Assembly (NCBI GenBank): GCA_022821845.1
Contig: JAJECT010000027.1
Coordinates: 1-64,000, forward strand
Direction: 5' to 3'
Length of the DNA stretch: 64,000 nt
From: Rhodothermales bacterium
GTDB taxonomy: Bacteria; Bacteroidota; Rhodothermia; Rhodothermales; VXPQ01
The notes under the pieces were generated by a model. It saw nothing but the letters and a program-made list of their open reading frames with translations. It was not told the origin of the DNA and did not search any database. The position numbers and the translations under genes are program-made. How positions within the stretch are numbered: position 1 is the first letter of the stretch; every line of letters starts with the position of its first letter. Positions 480 through 11,554 of the stretch are shown here, piece after piece.

Positions 480-506
480 GGTTTTTAGGTATAGGATTGC
501 GTTGGT

Positions 507-715
507 TTACGCCGCCTTCGCGAGCGGCTTGCGTCTGTAGTATACGTCGTCGGGCGTGAGGTTGTCAAGGCCCTGGTGCGGGCGTTCTTCGTTGAAGTAG
601 CGGACGTAGGCAGCGATCCCCTTTTGGCCTCGGCCACCGTCTCGTACGCATGACGGTACACTTCCTCTTGCTCTACAATCTGGTTTCTGCTCCCGAACCC
701 CCGCTTGCTGACGGC
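507..715 (-). pseudogene. IS3-family OrfB (integrase core) remnant, frameshifted
   Basis: Two minus-strand frames together give the C-terminus of an IS3-type rve integrase. One frame has EEVYRHAYETVAEAKRG, and a second frame continues with IAAYVRYFNEERPHQGL and then DNLTPDDVYY. Intact OrfB proteins have these joined as one block, so a frameshift lies near 620-640. The catalytic DDE core that should precede them is missing upstream of about 715. This is a dead fragment of the right-hand end of an IS3 element. Confidence 0.75.
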
Positions 716-776
716 AACAAGGGAACCAGGACGCCTGTACGGGCGAATGCGAACGCGCCAAACGAAGGGATTTTTC

Positions 777-1868
777 TCAGCGCACCCTGAGATACTGCAC
801 GCTGAACAAGCGATTCGCGTCCGTCCAGACCTTCTGCACGGCGAACCCGGCGCGTTCGGCAAGGCGCCGAAAACGCTCCAGCGTGAATTTGTACGAATAC
901 TCGACCAGAATCGGCTCGCCCTCGGCGAAACGGACGGAATGCCCGTTTACCCGCACGGTTTGCCGGCAGGCGCTCACCAGCGACATTTCGATGCGCCCCT
1001 CGTCGAGGTTGTAGACGGCCCGGTGCCGGAACGCATCCAGGTCGAACGTGGCGCCCAGTTCCCGGTTCAGGCGGCGCAGCAGGTTCTTGTTGAACGCCGC
1101 CGTAACGCCCTCGGCATCGTTGTACGCCGCCTCGACGGTTGGCCGGTCTTTCTCCAGGTCCACCCCGATCAGCAACCCGCCGCCGGGGCCCGCCGCCTCG
1201 GCCATGCGCGTCAGAAAATCGAGGGCCTCCCGCGGCTCGAAATTGCCTATGGTGGAGCCGGGAAAGTAGACGACGGCGCGCGCCGCCTCGAACTCGGCGG
1301 ACGGAACCGCAAAAAAGGTCGTATAGTCCGCAGCCAGGGCGCGCATGGGAATATGCGGGTACGCCGCCCGGAGCCGACGCATCGAAGCGGCCAAATGCTC
1401 TTCGGAAATATCGATCGCCACATAGCCTGCCGGGTCAGACATGCGATCCAGCAGCAAGCGCGTCTTCAGGCTGCTTCCGCTGCCATATTCGAGCAAGAGG
1501 CAGCGCGGCCCCAGGCAGGCCACCATCTCGTCGAGATGCGCCTGCATGATGGCCCGCTCCGTGGCGGTCGGATAGTATGCTGAGAGCTCCGTAATCCGGT
1601 CGAAAAGACGGGACCCCGCGGCGTCGTAGAGGTACTTGCAGGGAAGCGACTTGGGCGCGCGCGCCATGCCGTCCATCACGTCGGCGAGCAGGACGGCGGC
1701 GGAGGCGGGAAGCGCAGGGGCGTCCGAACCGCTCGCACCGGACGGTTCCTTGCCGTTGCGAAGGGGGACTTGCTGCGCAGAGGGTATAGAGTGTACAGAA
1801 GGCGCCGAGGCGGACGAAGCCGGGCCTCCGTTGGCGTTTTCGGGAGAATCGGGTACGACGGGATTCAT
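777..1868 (-). CDS. egtD: L-histidine N-alpha-methyltransferase EgtD
   Basis: Predicted to trimethylate histidine to hercynine with three S-adenosylmethionine, the first step of ergothioneine synthesis, in the cytosol. The 363-residue product has the EgtD N-terminal segment (PCKYLYDAAGSRLFDRITEL), an SAM-binding motif EYGSGSSLKT near residue 124, the FPGSTIGNFEP motif, and a C-terminus of the expected kind ending DANRLFSVQYLRVR. Length fits the ~320-residue family plus a low-complexity Ala/Ser/Pro N-terminal tail. I use the ATG at 1868 because an ATG at 1961 would add only unconserved residues. It is the last gene of a minus-strand series with egtB, separated from egtB by the giant Ig-like gene. 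egtA, egtC and egtE are not in the window. Confidence 0.92.
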   Translation of the reverse strand: MNPVVPDSPENANGGPASSASAPSVHSIPSAQQVPLRNGKEPSGASGSDAPALPASAAVLLADVMDGMARAPKSLPCKYLYDAAGSRLFDRITELSAYYPTATERAIMQAHLDEMVACLGPRCLLLEYGSGSSLKTRLLLDRMSDPAGYVAIDISEEHLAASMRRLRAAYPHIPMRALAADYTTFFAVPSAEFEAARAVVYFPGSTIGNFEPREALDFLTRMAEAAGPGGGLLIGVDLEKDRPTVEAAYNDAEGVTAAFNKNLLRRLNRELGATFDLDAFRHRAVYNLDEGRIEMSLVSACRQTVRVNGHSVRFAEGEPILVEYSYKFTLERFRRLAERAGFAVQKVWTDANRLFSVQYLRVR

Positions 1869-2155
1869 AACTTCTGTGGCGGATAGCGTTCGGAAAACAT
1901 ACGAGAAGGCGCCGCCGAGGGTGTAGCGATGGCGTACGAGGCGCGCGGGGCAAGGTTGCACGGAAAGATATTATTTTCCAGAGAAACTCGTGCGAGATCT
2001 TCAGGCAACTTCCCTGGCGCATCTTTCCCGCTCGCTCGCCGCTCCCGTTGACCACGCCCGCGCCTTCCACGCTGCAACTGCCCACGCCATCAACTGGCTG
2101 CATCGAAGCATCGCCTCAAAATCGACCGGACAACGGAAATGCTCCCTTTGCTCGA

Positions 2156-5100
2156 TTACTGGCTCCCCACAGCAGCTGGCGATGCGGTTTCTTCATACTC
2201 CGCCTCGCCTATGTTCCTGCGCGGCGCATTCCACTCGACCGATGTCGGCGAAGGAGCGCGGCCCGATCCCCGAGGCGTAAAACGCAAAAACACGGCTCCT
2301 TCCTCAGGCATGCGGTCCAACGGAATGCGTACGCGGCTGCGCGTGTACACCAGCGTCTCGCTACGACCCAGCTCTCGACCGTCCCCGTCGTACGCCACCA
2401 CCTCGCCTGCAAAAGGACGATCCGCCGTTTCCAGCATAAATGTCGCCGACAGCGAATCCGCGTACGAGATCGCCAACAACCGAGCGCGAAGCTGCGAAGC
2501 CCCTTCTCCGGGGATGTACAACCCCGGAACGCGCATCGTCACTCGAGCTGTACGATCTTCGTCAACATCCTCAGGCATACGGTCCAGGTTCGCATAACTA
2601 CGAGGAGCGGATACCACGTCGAAAAACGCCGCATACCCCTTATCAACCATCTCTCTGCGCGCCTCCCCCCTCACCCTGTAACGAACAAGCCCCTTCTCGC
2701 CCGGCATCAGAACCAGTACGCCCGGATATACCTCTACCATCTCCGACAAATCGCCCAGACGAGACCCTGTAGTATCCTCTACCGCTATCTCGCGCCCCGA
2801 CTCCGTCGCCTCCGTATAGCCAAAACGAGCCGACGTCGATACCTCGAGAGGAACAAGCGATGGATTCGATAGCTCGAACGCCCCGGTGGGCTGCTTTCCG
2901 GTCAAAAACGCCATGTCTGGATAAATGCTTAGATTCTGATCCGCGGTCAAGCCTGCGGGAACCTCGCGCGATGCGCCGAGACGCACCCCCCCGGGGCCTA
3001 TCGTGATTACGCGCTGCGAAGAAACGACCGTCACCGTAACTTCCACCCAATGCGTCTCCTCGCGTTCGCCCGAACGCAGAACGACACCCAGATTACCCGC
3101 GTAATGACCCGGAGGCGCGTCCGCAAGGTCCAACGCGCCTCCGAAGCGAAGCAGGCGACAGGTTTCTTCCCGAAGCATCGTCTCCGTATACAGACCGCCT
3201 ATTGCCTGAGACGAAAGCTGCTCGCACGATGCTGCATACGACCAGGCGGGCGTAAAAACGAGCGAAGCGCCCTCGGCAACCCGCGTGCGTTCGAGAACGG
3301 CCGGAGAGGCCAACTCGATAGACAAATCCATCTCTGCGTTCTCGCGAAGGGCGTCGCCGTCCAGGGCAAGCGTCATGCGACCCGCATGGTACGGGCCCGA
3401 TACGCGCGTCGATATGCCATCGGTCATCGGATCGAGCGACGCCCGCGTATCAGCCGACTGCACCCCGAAGCGCAAGGGAGAAGCGCTTACCGTTATACCA
3501 AGCACCGAAACCCGGTCGGGTTCAGTCGGCGAAACCCGGTCGAGCACCGTCACCCTTACCTCGGCCGTTGCGTCTTCTGCATTCTCCGCCGAAACAGTCA
3601 AAAGGTACTCGTACGTCTCGGCTTCGTCCACCTCCTCCGGCACATAGAACGTCGGCGAAGCAATGTCCACAGCGCTCAGCAGCGCCGTGTTCGGCGTATC
3701 GCCCAATGCCGTCCATATATACGCATACTGCGGGTCGACGCCCGGCGCGCCCGATACGGAACACGCCAGAATGATATCCGGCGCCCCCTCGTACACAGAG
3801 CCCGGATCTGCGCACGCCGCCGCAATAGGTTCCCTGTTCAACACCGTAACCGTAACGGTCTTTTCGTCCGGATCCGCATTCGCCGTCGTGACGCGCGCCA
3901 CATACGTCCAGGTCGTATCCCGACCCACCTCGGCGGGCACGGCGAATGTCGGCGTAGCCGTATCGCGATCCGTCAATTGATCGGCAGGGGACCATGACCA
4001 GGCATACGTCAAACCCGGCGGCCCGGTAGCGAAACAGGAAAATTCGAAGGGCGGCGATCCCTCGTACACAGGATCGGGGTCGTCGCAAGTAATCTCAAGT
4101 GCGCTGTTTCTCACAGTTACCGTCCAGTTCCAGTTCGCGGCATCGGCATTCGGGGCCGATATCGCAAGCTGGTATTCGTAAGTCCGGTCCTCGTCCAGCG
4201 TCCCGTATGGCGGAATGTAGAAAGAGGCAATCATCCCGGTGCGGGAATGCAGAAGGTCGATAGCCGCCTCTGGCGTATCGCCGCGCACGCTCCACCAATA
4301 CGAATAAACGCCGCCGGGAGACCCTTGCGGGGGGACTAAAACATCGTCCGAAGTACACGCGGACGACTCGATTGTATCCCCGGCGCCCTCCCATACGGTG
4401 GCGTAATCCGAAAAGGTATGCGTTGCACACCATGTAATATTCGGCTTCTCAAGCACTGTTACCCTCACATCTTCAACGATGTCGGCGAAACCGTCGGCTG
4501 ACATCGTCACCGTGTATTCGTAGTTCTTATCCGCCTCGCCCGGCTCATCGATATCGCCCGGCGCCGAGAACACGGGAGCGTAACTGTCGGTACCGCTTAA
4601 ACGATTTGCGACATCCGTACCGGACCAGACGTATGTTGCCCCGGACGGCTGGTTTGCAACCGTACAGTCCAGCGTAATGTCCCCCGCTCCCTCGTAGATA
4701 CTGGCGTTCTCGCACCTGACGGAAGGCGCCAACGCATCCGTGTTCCTCACCTTCACCTTAATCGTTTTCTCGTCTGGGTCATAGCCTGGAGCGCTTGCTG
4801 TCACCGTGTACGTCCAGGTCGTATCCCGGTCTACCTCGAGAGGCACAGCGAATGTCGGCCTACCCGTATCGTGCCCCGTCAGCCCGGTTGTCGGAGACCA
4901 GGACCACCTGATTTCGCCGGTGTCCCGGCGATGCCATGCGGAACAGGAAAAAACAATATTCGCAGCGCCCTCTTGCACGCTGCCGGGATCTTCGCATTCA
5001 ATGGCGGTTTCCAGATTTCTAACGCTCACGTATACGTCCTGACTCTCAACCCTGTTACCACTGAAGGAGAGCTGGTAATCGACTCGAACAAGAAAATGGT

Positions 5101-6688
5101 AGCGCGTCGTTTCGCTTACGCTATCAGGCACGCGAAAAAAAGGATCGGGAACGTTGACGGCACTGAGGATTCCCGGATCGTACGAATGCTCCCATAACCA
5201 TGTCTCGTTCAGGATTTGCTCGCCCTCCGGCGAAATAACCCAGCACTGGCGTTGCTGATCCGGGTCCCCTTCGTATACAGGAGCAAAGACAGTGCATTTA
5301 AGATTGTCGAGCGGATCCGAAATCCCTGCCTTCGACGTACGCTGCCCGCCTCCCTCCGCATCCTCGACTTTCACCGTCACTCTTCTTCTCGCCGTGTGGG
5401 GCGTACCCGAAGCCGACGTCGTCATGCTGGCTATGTAATGGTACTCCGCGCCCGCACTGCCGGCAGGCGCCGTAAACAAGGGAGACGACAAGTCCGTCGC
5501 ATCGAGAGGAGACAGGTCCGTTCCCCACAAACCCTCCCACTTCCACAGCGCCGACGCGGATTCCTCGTCGTAGTCCATGCGAAAAGACAAAGGACCTGCC
5601 CCCTCGCAATCGAGCGAAACCGTCTCTCCCTCTTCCACCACTACCTCCAATGGACAATATACGACCGGACGACGGCTCAATACATGCACCTCCACCTCCT
5701 CATGCGAAGAAAGGCCCGTTGCGCGAGAGATCGCCGTCAAGCGGTACCGGTAACGAAACGTCGCCTCCCCCGAAAGAAACGACTCCAACGTCTTGGGCGC
5801 CGGCGCCTCCAGAGCGATCACCGAAGGATTAGGGCTGTCTTCGGGAATCAAACGCGGATTGTCCAGATAGTCCCGCGTCGCACCGCCTATGGGCTCCCAG
5901 AAATACGCCAAATACTCTTCCCCCGCAGCGTCCCATGCGCGGCAATTGATCGCGCCCGTCTCCAACTCCTCCAAAAAAATCGCCGCAGGACAATCCAGGC
6001 GCGGGGGCTCCTGGCTGCCGAATCCGCCGCGAACAGAACCGGGAGGCGCATCGGGCGCATCGGGCAAATCGGGCGTTTCCGGAATAAGAAACTCCTCTTC
6101 CGGAACGAATCCCAACGGGTCCAAATCCCCCTCTCGCAGCGGGCAGCCTGCAACGGGTTCGTCAAAAAATGCAAGCGGATCGCATTTGTCCTGAAAGCCG
6201 GGCAACGTATCCCTGTCTCGGACAGAACCGCTCGCAACACCCCCTACTGTAACGATAACCATCGCCGTCTCGTATAAGGTCGCGCCCACCGTTGTCAATC
6301 GATACGCGTATTCCGCGCCTGCTCCCGACACAGGAGCCGTGAACAAGGGCGATAATTTGTCCAGGGCATCTAGAAAATCGATTCCGTCGCCCGATAACGA
6401 CTCCCAACGGTAGCGAACGCCCTCTTCCGGTACATTCGTCGCAGCACACGAGAGCAGAACGGATTCCCCTGCCAGGGCATGAAGGCGAGAAGGACAAGAC
6501 AAGGCAAACGACTCGTCGTAATTATTCCCGCCTTTCACAGGAAACCCTCCTTCCTCTATGACCTGAGCCTGCGCCGACGATGCAAAGAGCAGCCCGACCG
6601 CAAGCAGGCGCGCCATGCGGGCGGCTATGGCCTCAGAGAGGCGGAAAAACGCCGGGCGTATTTCCCGATTTTTCGTCTTTCTCGTCAT
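2156..6688 (-). CDS. Giant exported protein: Ig-like modules + DUF4402-like + PapD-like domains
   Basis: About 1510 residues. A signal peptide is visible (MARLLAVGLLFASSAQA); if the ATG at 6616 is the true start the protein begins directly with it, otherwise at 6688 with a 24-residue basic extension. Residues ~60-1050 hold about nine Ig/PKD-like modules. Several open with a Cys, then V/IYEG, then a second Cys about 18 residues later, and each ends in YxYxVTVxA and VTVxxR strands. Residues ~1058-1215 resemble DUF4402 (LRFGVQ start, PPGHYAGNLGVVL end). Residues ~1219-1475 resemble a PapD-type pilus chaperone fold (VYPGVLVLMPGEKGLVRYRV, MRVPGLYIPG). The composition looks less G+C-rich than egtB and egtD, suggesting insertion. 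Probably a secreted or surface adhesin-like protein; no enzymatic motif seen. Domain calls are by eye. Confidence 0.7.
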   Translation of the reverse strand: MTRKTKNREIRPAFFRLSEAIAARMARLLAVGLLFASSAQAQVIEEGGFPVKGGNNYDESFALSCPSRLHALAGESVLLSCAATNVPEEGVRYRWESLSGDGIDFLDALDKLSPLFTAPVSGAGAEYAYRLTTVGATLYETAMVIVTVGGVASGSVRDRDTLPGFQDKCDPLAFFDEPVAGCPLREGDLDPLGFVPEEEFLIPETPDLPDAPDAPPGSVRGGFGSQEPPRLDCPAAIFLEELETGAINCRAWDAAGEEYLAYFWEPIGGATRDYLDNPRLIPEDSPNPSVIALEAPAPKTLESFLSGEATFRYRYRLTAISRATGLSSHEEVEVHVLSRRPVVYCPLEVVVEEGETVSLDCEGAGPLSFRMDYDEESASALWKWEGLWGTDLSPLDATDLSSPLFTAPAGSAGAEYHYIASMTTSASGTPHTARRRVTVKVEDAEGGGQRTSKAGISDPLDNLKCTVFAPVYEGDPDQQRQCWVISPEGEQILNETWLWEHSYDPGILSAVNVPDPFFRVPDSVSETTRYHFLVRVDYQLSFSGNRVESQDVYVSVRNLETAIECEDPGSVQEGAANIVFSCSAWHRRDTGEIRWSWSPTTGLTGHDTGRPTFAVPLEVDRDTTWTYTVTASAPGYDPDEKTIKVKVRNTDALAPSVRCENASIYEGAGDITLDCTVANQPSGATYVWSGTDVANRLSGTDSYAPVFSAPGDIDEPGEADKNYEYTVTMSADGFADIVEDVRVTVLEKPNITWCATHTFSDYATVWEGAGDTIESSACTSDDVLVPPQGSPGGVYSYWWSVRGDTPEAAIDLLHSRTGMIASFYIPPYGTLDEDRTYEYQLAISAPNADAANWNWTVTVRNSALEITCDDPDPVYEGSPPFEFSCFATGPPGLTYAWSWSPADQLTDRDTATPTFAVPAEVGRDTTWTYVARVTTANADPDEKTVTVTVLNREPIAAACADPGSVYEGAPDIILACSVSGAPGVDPQYAYIWTALGDTPNTALLSAVDIASPTFYVPEEVDEAETYEYLLTVSAENAEDATAEVRVTVLDRVSPTEPDRVSVLGITVSASPLRFGVQSADTRASLDPMTDGISTRVSGPYHAGRMTLALDGDALRENAEMDLSIELASPAVLERTRVAEGASLVFTPAWSYAASCEQLSSQAIGGLYTETMLREETCRLLRFGGALDLADAPPGHYAGNLGVVLRSGEREETHWVEVTVTVVSSQRVITIGPGGVRLGASREVPAGLTADQNLSIYPDMAFLTGKQPTGAFELSNPSLVPLEVSTSARFGYTEATESGREIAVEDTTGSRLGDLSEMVEVYPGVLVLMPGEKGLVRYRVRGEARREMVDKGYAAFFDVVSAPRSYANLDRMPEDVDEDRTARVTMRVPGLYIPGEGASQLRARLLAISYADSLSATFMLETADRPFAGEVVAYDGDGRELGRSETLVYTRSRVRIPLDRMPEEGAVFLRFTPRGSGRAPSPTSVEWNAPRRNIGEAEYEETASPAAVGSQ

Positions 6689-6758
6689 CGGATCGCACGC
6701 GCTTCAGAATATTCGATGCAGGCGTTTTTGGTTGAAGTACCAGATGAAGGCGGATATC

Positions 6759-8066
<1,308 letters not shown>

Positions 8067-9829: not shown

Positions 9830-11554
9830 TTATTTCATCAACACCATGTGGCGGGTTTCGATGCGCGTTTCCGTTTCCAGCACGTACGTATACACGCCGC
9901 TGGGCCATCCGGAGGCGTCCAGCCGCACTTCATGCCCGCCCGCCGGATACAAACCATCCGCGGGAACGGCTACCCGCTGCCCCAGCAAGTTGTATACGGA
10001 TAGCCGAACGCGCTCGGCGAACGGCTGCGACCAGGAAATCGACGTGGATGGATTGAACGGGTTCGGATAATTCTGCGCAAGTTCTACGCCGGACGGAAGT
10101 TCCGTCGGCGCTTCCGCAGACAGGACCGGCGGCGTAACTACGAACCGGGGCCGAATGGGGAATACGTAACCGTCGAGCGGGATGCGACCATTGTCTACAC
10201 TCAATTGCGAGAGGAAGAACCAGTCGGTCCGGTCGCCGACGGTCGAATACATATATGCTTTGTCGTTCGGCGAATCGCTTGTACGGGGCGCAGGCGTAAA
10301 AAGAAGATAATTGTTGTCCGCTCCCTTGTTGACGAGGCCTATGAAAATTTGCTCTGGCAAGTCCGAAAGCGCAGCGTCCTCCGCCGGCAGGTCGAGGCGC
10401 GAAAACCAGAATCTGTCGTTGGTAAGGATGTGCGACGCATAGGGGCCTTCCTCCACGTCCATGCTATACAGTTCCTTGTTCGGCAAGCCGTCCTCGCCTC
10501 GGTCCCATACCTTAAGCGTAAAATCGCGGGGGACGCCGGGGTCTATGCCGCTTCTGCTGCCGAGCTCGTTGGCGTACGCCGGCGCTACGAAAACGGAAGC
10601 CAAACGGGCGTCTTTGGGCACGTCGTAGAGATTGGTCGCAATAGCATCGGCCCCGCCGAAAATATATATGCCCTCGTTGCGGCCGGTATCCCAGGACACG
10701 ACCGTTTCTTCCAACGCGCTGTCCGAAGGAATACGAAATACGGGACGGACGGGAAACCCGTGATCGGCCAGCGACCCGCCTTGAACCGGTATTTGCGCCA
10801 GCGGGTACCAGGTCGTCCTCGGACCATCGGTCGCATACAGATACGCCGCGCCCCGCGGCGCCGTATCCCGGAGAAGAGATACCCCAAAGCCAAGATAATT
10901 TTCGTCGGTCCCCGCGTTGGCGAGGCCTACGAAGATGCGATCCGGAAGATCGCCAAGCGCCTTGTCTTCCGCAGGAAGGTCGATTTGCAGAAAGGCATAC
11001 GCCTTACCGCGGACAAGGTGAAACGCATCGGTCGGCTCTTGCACGTCCATGCTATACCGTTCCGTGCCCGGCGAGCCGTCGTCGGCCACATCCCATATCT
11101 TGAGCGTAAAATCTTTGGGGGACGAGCGCGGCGCATGTGGCGGGTCATACTGGTTTATATACACCGGCGCCGCGAGCACAGAGGTCAGGCGCCCCCCGGA
11201 GGGCACATCGTAGCGCTGGGCATAAATATGCTCCTCGCTGCCCAAAAACAACGTATCGTACCGATCCGAATCGTAGGCAAGCATAACGTCCCGATACCCG
11301 GATGCGACGGCGCCCTCGCCGCCAACCGCTTGCGCGCCCGCCTGCCTCGGCGACACCGAAATTTCCGCCGCAACGCGGGGCGGCGCTTCTATCGTTTCAA
11401 TCTCTTGCCGCTGGAAAACGCCTTCCTGGGCCTGGGCAAACAGGTCGGCGCTTGTGGCCACGCCCCAAACGAGGGCGACAAAAAGACTGGAAAGCAAAAA
11501 CGCGCTGTTACATCGTATCGCAACAGCCGTCGAGGGGAGGATACGCATTGGCAT
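9830..11554 (-). CDS. Exported protein with two repeat modules and a T9SS sorting domain
   Basis: 574 residues. An N-terminal signal peptide is followed by two copies of a ~190-residue module. Matching parts are DFTLKIWDVADDGSPG versus DFTLKVWDRGEDGLPN, and LPDRIFVGLANAG versus LPEQIFIGLVNKG. The C-terminus is a type IX secretion sorting domain: ELAQNYPNPFNPSTSISW, then VRLSVYNLLGQRV, SGVYTYVL and a final basic-aromatic strand. The protein is thus predicted to cross the outer membrane by T9SS and be surface-bound or released. No catalytic motif recognised. It sits alone between malQ and glgX and has its own promoter-like sequence upstream, so a role in glucan use is only a guess. Confidence 0.8.
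   Translation of the reverse strand: MPMRILPSTAVAIRCNSAFLLSSLFVALVWGVATSADLFAQAQEGVFQRQEIETIEAPPRVAAEISVSPRQAGAQAVGGEGAVASGYRDVMLAYDSDRYDTLFLGSEEHIYAQRYDVPSGGRLTSVLAAPVYINQYDPPHAPRSSPKDFTLKIWDVADDGSPGTERYSMDVQEPTDAFHLVRGKAYAFLQIDLPAEDKALGDLPDRIFVGLANAGTDENYLGFGVSLLRDTAPRGAAYLYATDGPRTTWYPLAQIPVQGGSLADHGFPVRPVFRIPSDSALEETVVSWDTGRNEGIYIFGGADAIATNLYDVPKDARLASVFVAPAYANELGSRSGIDPGVPRDFTLKVWDRGEDGLPNKELYSMDVEEGPYASHILTNDRFWFSRLDLPAEDAALSDLPEQIFIGLVNKGADNNYLLFTPAPRTSDSPNDKAYMYSTVGDRTDWFFLSQLSVDNGRIPLDGYVFPIRPRFVVTPPVLSAEAPTELPSGVELAQNYPNPFNPSTSISWSQPFAERVRLSVYNLLGQRVAVPADGLYPAGGHEVRLDASGWPSGVYTYVLETETRIETRHMVLMK

Follow-up and report, generated by a model that had tools for sequence, protein, structure and literature searches.

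Chaperone-usher assembly is thought to need a separate chaperone, which donates a strand and then leaves. In this pathway the chaperone and the subunit are separate proteins, and the pilin lacks its final antiparallel strand (PMC10104325) while carrying an N-terminal donor strand. The locus described here departs from this scheme, as all complete copies in the genus have subunit and chaperone fused into one chain, and the pilin domain has an extra strand at its end and an array of Ig-like modules in place of the donor strand. The copy under study, a protein of 1510 amino acids, lies between egtB and egtD, two genes of antioxidant (ergothioneine) synthesis, in a stretch of 64,000 nucleotides from a Rhodothermales bacterium, hereafter the window, in which all features below are numbered (residues are those of the 1510-aa protein).

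777..1961, minus strand: egtD, host gene flanking the insertion at its low-coordinate end (TIGR03438, 393 bits)
1961..6758, no strand: insertion of 4798 bp relative to the same-genus genome G001, replacing 19 bp, with clean junctions
2156..6688, minus strand: giant fusion protein of 1510 aa with Ig, DUF4402-like and PapD-like parts, an uninterrupted open reading frame
2222..2944, minus strand: predicted two-domain PapD-like chaperone domain, residues ~1249-1489 (AlphaFold2 model m17e5e803a321, VIA Z 11-12)
2945..3022, minus strand: conserved linker with the motif RxVxxxGPGGVRF, residues 1223-1248
3023..3064, minus strand: extra C-terminal strand REETHWVEVTVTVV, residues 1209-1222, absent from unfused subunits
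3071..3502, minus strand: DUF4402-like pilin domain, residues ~1063-1206 (homology to unfused subunits, A6 profile)
3539..6511, minus strand: array of nine Ig/PKD-like modules, each with a Cys pair, residues ~60-1050 (scores above the Pfam cut-offs of PF22352 and PF13927; Cys spacing)
6563..6688, minus strand: N-terminal leader, residues ~1-42 with ...ASSAQA|Q at its end, probably a signal peptide (sequence judged by eye)
6759..8066, minus strand: egtB, host gene flanking the insertion at its high-coordinate end (TIGR03440, 574 bits)

A reading of the window from its sequence alone had described about nine Cys-paired modules with a YEG motif, and the array indeed contains nine Cys pairs, spaced by 16-17 residues (24 in one of them), most of which enclose the motif [YWQE]EG. 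The canonical B-F disulfide of Ig domains is spaced differently, and Pfam matches to K319L-like_PKD (PF22352, 49.8 bits against a cut-off of 27) and Ig_3 (PF13927, 37.4 bits against a cut-off of 30) place the modules among Ig/PKD-like folds. No tandem repeats were found at the DNA level, and neither T9SS C-terminal sorting domain model (TIGR04183, PF18962) matched the giant protein. A nearby protein of 574 residues (window 9830-11554, minus strand) does carry a T9SS C-terminal sorting domain, and for this reason the organism probably uses the type IX route as well.

The nine modules are followed by the C-terminal half of the protein, about 440 residues, for which searches of Pfam and of PDB sequences returned nothing significant in either the pilin or the chaperone part. 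The pilin domain was recognised through its relatives, since it is about 28-35% identical to small secreted proteins encoded as separate genes in family f15 (the unfused subunits). DUF4402 (PF14352) matches 9 of the 11 aligned A6 members (best E 2.3e-5), neighbouring or related subunits score above the DUF4402 cut-off, and the A6 profile matches the window's pilin domain with an E-value of 5e-43. The earlier reading of a DUF4402-like pilin domain is supported by homology to unfused subunits that match this model; in the window's own domain Pfam finds no DUF4402.

The two forms differ at their ends. All 35 unfused subunits found by profile stop about 15 residues or less past the F-strand motif, ending at strand F as chaperone-usher pilins do, whereas in all 21 aligned fused proteins strand F is followed by a further strand with alternating hydrophobic residues (h.h.h.h). 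The AlphaFold2 model, which covers residues 945-1510 and was built from 37 sequences (mean pLDDT 86), places this strand confidently (pLDDT 90-97) after a two-residue turn, and, judging from strand order and model confidence, it would fill the groove of the pilin domain. At the other end of the domain, the Ig array of the fused protein takes the place of the N-terminal extension that would serve as donor strand in unfused subunits. The distance from the F-strand motif to the start of the chaperone is 57-59 residues in 21/21 fused proteins.

As for the last domain, previously noted as pilus-chaperone-like, structure prediction yielded a PapD-like fold: residues 305-545 of the model (1249-1489 of the protein) match SfaE, CfaA, CsuC, FimC and PapD with Z 11-12 in VIA-align, a structural re-alignment concerned chiefly with the chaperone region. 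When the chaperone profiles were compared with three chaperones of E. coli, no significant similarity emerged, and PapD_N was matched weakly by a relative in another family (E 6.7e-4), so that the chaperone identity rests on the predicted fold together with weak PapD_N matches of relatives. The fused chaperone retains alternating hydrophobic residues in its G1 strand and, immediately ahead of the F1-G1 loop, an invariant Arg. The domain order of the 1510-aa protein bears out the claim that subunit and chaperone occupy one chain.

The fusion is not peculiar to the window, a point on which the sequence-only reading needs correcting: such fusions occur in almost all of the genus and in family f15, and most of them share an operon with a divergent usher. 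Matches among 99 relatives were confined to these two groups. The window's own genome (G000) has further copies of the fusion family on contigs C30 and C38, and the C-terminal half is 59-75% identical among copies within the genus. All chaperone and subunit matches found across the genus lie in fused frames, at contig ends or in short fragments or remnants, and G002, a closed genome, has a single fused copy, adjoining the usher operon. In f15, on the other hand, DUF4402 subunits and the chaperone are encoded by adjacent separate genes, followed by a protein of ~750 aa and by ExbB/ExbD-like genes, and several f15 genomes with these unfused genes possess, in addition, another operon that contains fused copies together with a separate usher-like gene. 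In a tree rooted with chaperones from other families of the phylum, the fused chaperones are monophyletic (UFBoot 98) and their sister group is the unfused f15 chaperones (99); a single ancestral fusion is the simplest reading.

Several further loci of the family were observed. On contig C30 of the window's genome (14453-22801) two giant genes of the fused family stand in tandem, one encoding 1701 aa and the other running off the contig after 1058 aa. In the closed same-genus genome G004 (C1:701644-701778, locus L036) the fused protein is reduced to a remnant of 44 aa and there is no usher, an apparent loss of the fusion/usher system. Very large frames lie directly upstream of f15 fused operons (L067 11436-19001, the 5' ends of L073-L076, and L077 10258-16575), some of them with putative Ig-like repeats recognised by eye.

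Identification of the usher required more than the standard model, as Pfam Usher (PF00577) matched none of the 99 relatives, the window's own genome included, while an E. coli control was positive. The neighbour of ~750-860 aa is nevertheless an usher by profile comparison and predicted fold: hhalign against E. coli FimD, YehB and YraJ gave an E-value of 1.1e-7 over 562 columns, and the AlphaFold2 model of the protein encoded on C38 of the window's genome (39525-42041) aligns with PapC over 408 residues (Z 26.7, rmsd 3.4) and matches FimD with a Foldseek value of 5.6e-29, the next non-usher porins, of the OprD type, reaching Z 14.4. Of 296 genomes searched across the phylum, 49 encode ushers related to this one; a chaperone gene adjoins the usher in all eight neighbourhoods read, and a recognisable subunit gene is present in most. 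This divergent usher family indicates that chaperone-usher systems occur in this phylum yet escape the Pfam usher model. In the literature searched, mostly outside subscription journals, DUF4402 is not mentioned and, by titles and counts, chaperone-usher is never paired with Rhodothermales and meets Bacteroidota in two papers, in passing mentions only.

The operon of the closed genome G002 reads o222, ExbD, o308, ExbD, TPR lipoprotein, fused protein, usher, ExbB, with ExbB and one ExbD above the Pfam cut-offs and the second ExbD just below. In the window's genome exbB adjoins the C38 usher; ExbD and the TPR lipoprotein were found neither there nor in G001, in both of which the operon contig breaks inside the fused gene, and o222 was likewise not found in these two genomes among the loci read. 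Other families show a different set of neighbours. Downstream of divergent chaperone and usher genes at L116:12012-17019 (f18 genome G121), Pfam identifies a rotor-like protein bearing the middle and C-terminal domains of FliG, together with small lipoprotein-like, MotA/ExbB-type and MotB/OmpA-type proteins; the order at L119:11502-15772 (f17 genome G201) is similar, the Pfam run having covered L116 only. This repeated proximity of usher genes to genes for proton-channel proteins raises the question of whether some ushers are energised. It is possible, and suggested here tentatively, that these systems represent a non-polymerising chaperone-usher display coupled to the proton motive force, in which each adhesin has its own chaperone and final strand, exchange takes place within one chain, and ExbB/ExbD (in other families the FliG-like and MotA/MotB-like proteins) act on the usher or its cargo.

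Taken together, we lean towards regarding the giant protein as a derivative of chaperone-usher adhesins made as a single chain. In such a molecule the Ig array would be the part meant for exposure, and the DUF4402-like domain would correspond to the pilin domain that forms the base of two-domain tip adhesins. The extra strand would supply the missing final pilin strand in cis and so complete the domain, which would make extension by classical donor-strand exchange impossible; the fused protein therefore probably does not polymerise in the classical way, as far as sequence and model indicate. The fused chaperone may dock the molecule on the divergent C38 usher and stay behind on the periplasmic side to anchor it, leaving the Ig array exposed on the cell surface, and in complete operons the ExbB/ExbD-like proteins and the lipoprotein may energise or brace the usher. 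A polymerising version of the self-chaperoned fibre envisaged in the sequence-only reading is less favoured than a self-completed single-chain adhesin because the extra strand is present, the Ig array replaces the donor strand and no free subunit or chaperone was found in the genus. Against the single-chain adhesin, the fused chaperone, with its G1 donor strand and invariant Arg retained, could still complement the subunit itself, and the missing ExbD, TPR lipoprotein and o222 of the window's genome and G001 weigh the same way, though the operon contig is broken in both. It also counts against the single-chain adhesin that the 64-kb window contains no usher gene (usher-like and Exb genes are both absent from it), and the window copy would have to depend on an usher encoded elsewhere.

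Three other accounts of the fused chain have to be weighed. In the first, which is unlikely although slightly more probable than the others, donor-strand exchange would occur in cis: the chaperone's G1 strand would complement the pilin domain first, the built-in strand would replace G1 at the usher, and the folding energy would drive the export of one molecule. Conservation of both the fused G1 strand and the extra strand, each with alternating hydrophobic residues, and a linker of nearly fixed length are consistent with this account, but the strand that AlphaFold2 so confidently sets after F by way of a two-residue turn gives no sign of two states. Slightly less probable is a precursor that is cut within the RxVxxxGPGGVRF linker in the periplasm, which would release a free chaperone and leave an ordinary chaperone-usher adhesin. 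The linker motif is conserved and AlphaFold2 confidence drops near model residues 291-300; however, no known protease site was identified, a length constant within two residues is unusual for a mere cleavage loop, and the extra strand would remain after the cut. We give about the same low credence to a simple secreted or periplasmic Ig-repeat protein that makes no use of an usher and whose pilin and chaperone domains are degenerate relics. The lack of an usher beside the window copy and the short remnant in G004, a genome of the same genus without an usher, fit such decay, but the sequence identity of the C-terminal half within the genus and the retention of the fused gene beside usher and ExbB in operons argue against it.

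The position of the window copy is itself informative. In the same-genus genomes G001, G002, G003 and G004 the gap between egtB and egtD measures 36-131 bp, and the two genes are also adjacent across the order, so that the arrangement with the giant gene between them, whose conservation in relatives had been the point to check, is not a conserved one. The window is 95% identical in DNA to G001, and the copy is a recent insertion between egtB and egtD, an extra paralogue; no target-site duplication was found at 1961..6758. Its GC3 is 0.65, against about 0.76-0.79 in most of the larger window genes and 0.73-0.74 in its paralogues in the same genome. In the gene tree the window copy joins those of G003 and G005 (support 82-96), while the C30 and C38 copies of its own genome cluster with G001 at 100. 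Acquisition, first proposed from composition and position, is thus supported by the insertion, the low GC3 and the adjacency of egtB and egtD in congeners, and the gene was probably transferred from a different lineage within the genus; less likely, though possible, is the relocation of an old paralogue. That the order egtB-giant gene-egtD is ancestral or a product of misassembly is highly improbable, for although the assembly is a draft in 45 contigs, the adjacency in four congeners and across the order, clean junctions inside one contig of 130 kb and the deviating GC3 all speak against it. Just downstream of egtD (window 485-862, minus strand) lies a transposase-like remnant (EVYRHAYET...), also present at the G002 and G004 loci, which is possibly a trace of mobile elements near the insertion.

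The named carriers are MAGs of Rhodothermales or Rhodothermaceae. Among their sources are the sponge Aplysina aerophoba for bin80 (PMC5649159), Caribbean Ircinia sponges for the jk18x series (PMC9531527) and the skeleton of the coral Isopora palifera for the IP30a series (PMC11070183), the Rhodothermales bins of the latter two being assigned by series name. It is plausible that Ig-rich surface proteins in such sponge and coral MAGs are host-contact factors.

Among described systems, the tip adhesins FimH, PapG and CsuE resemble the giant protein in combining an exposed N-terminal part with a C-terminal pilin domain, a PapD-like chaperone and an usher, whereas the giant protein would expose nine Ig/PKD-like modules, has its chaperone attached covalently and bears an extra final pilin strand. 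PapC and FimD share with the C38 protein, by fold, the barrel, a plug-like domain and C-terminal domains at 12-14% identity, but this type of usher escapes PF00577 and shares its operon with ExbB/ExbD-like proteins. The chaperones PapD, FimC, CsuC and EcpB have the same arrangement of two Ig-like domains as that predicted for the fused chaperone, as well as the alternating-hydrophobic G1 strand and the invariant Arg before the F1-G1 loop, while the window chaperone differs in being joined to its subunit and in showing no significant similarity to E. coli chaperones by profile. A naturally fused chaperone that is unable to leave, joined to a subunit that seemingly has its own final strand, would separate usher secretion from polymerisation. 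Engineered self-complemented pilins such as SafD-dsc and EcpAsc have a donor strand in cis, which the window's pilin domain appears to share; these, however, were made in the laboratory (PMC4654587, PMC5700814), whereas the arrangement in the window, as read from sequence and predicted model, appears to be natural.
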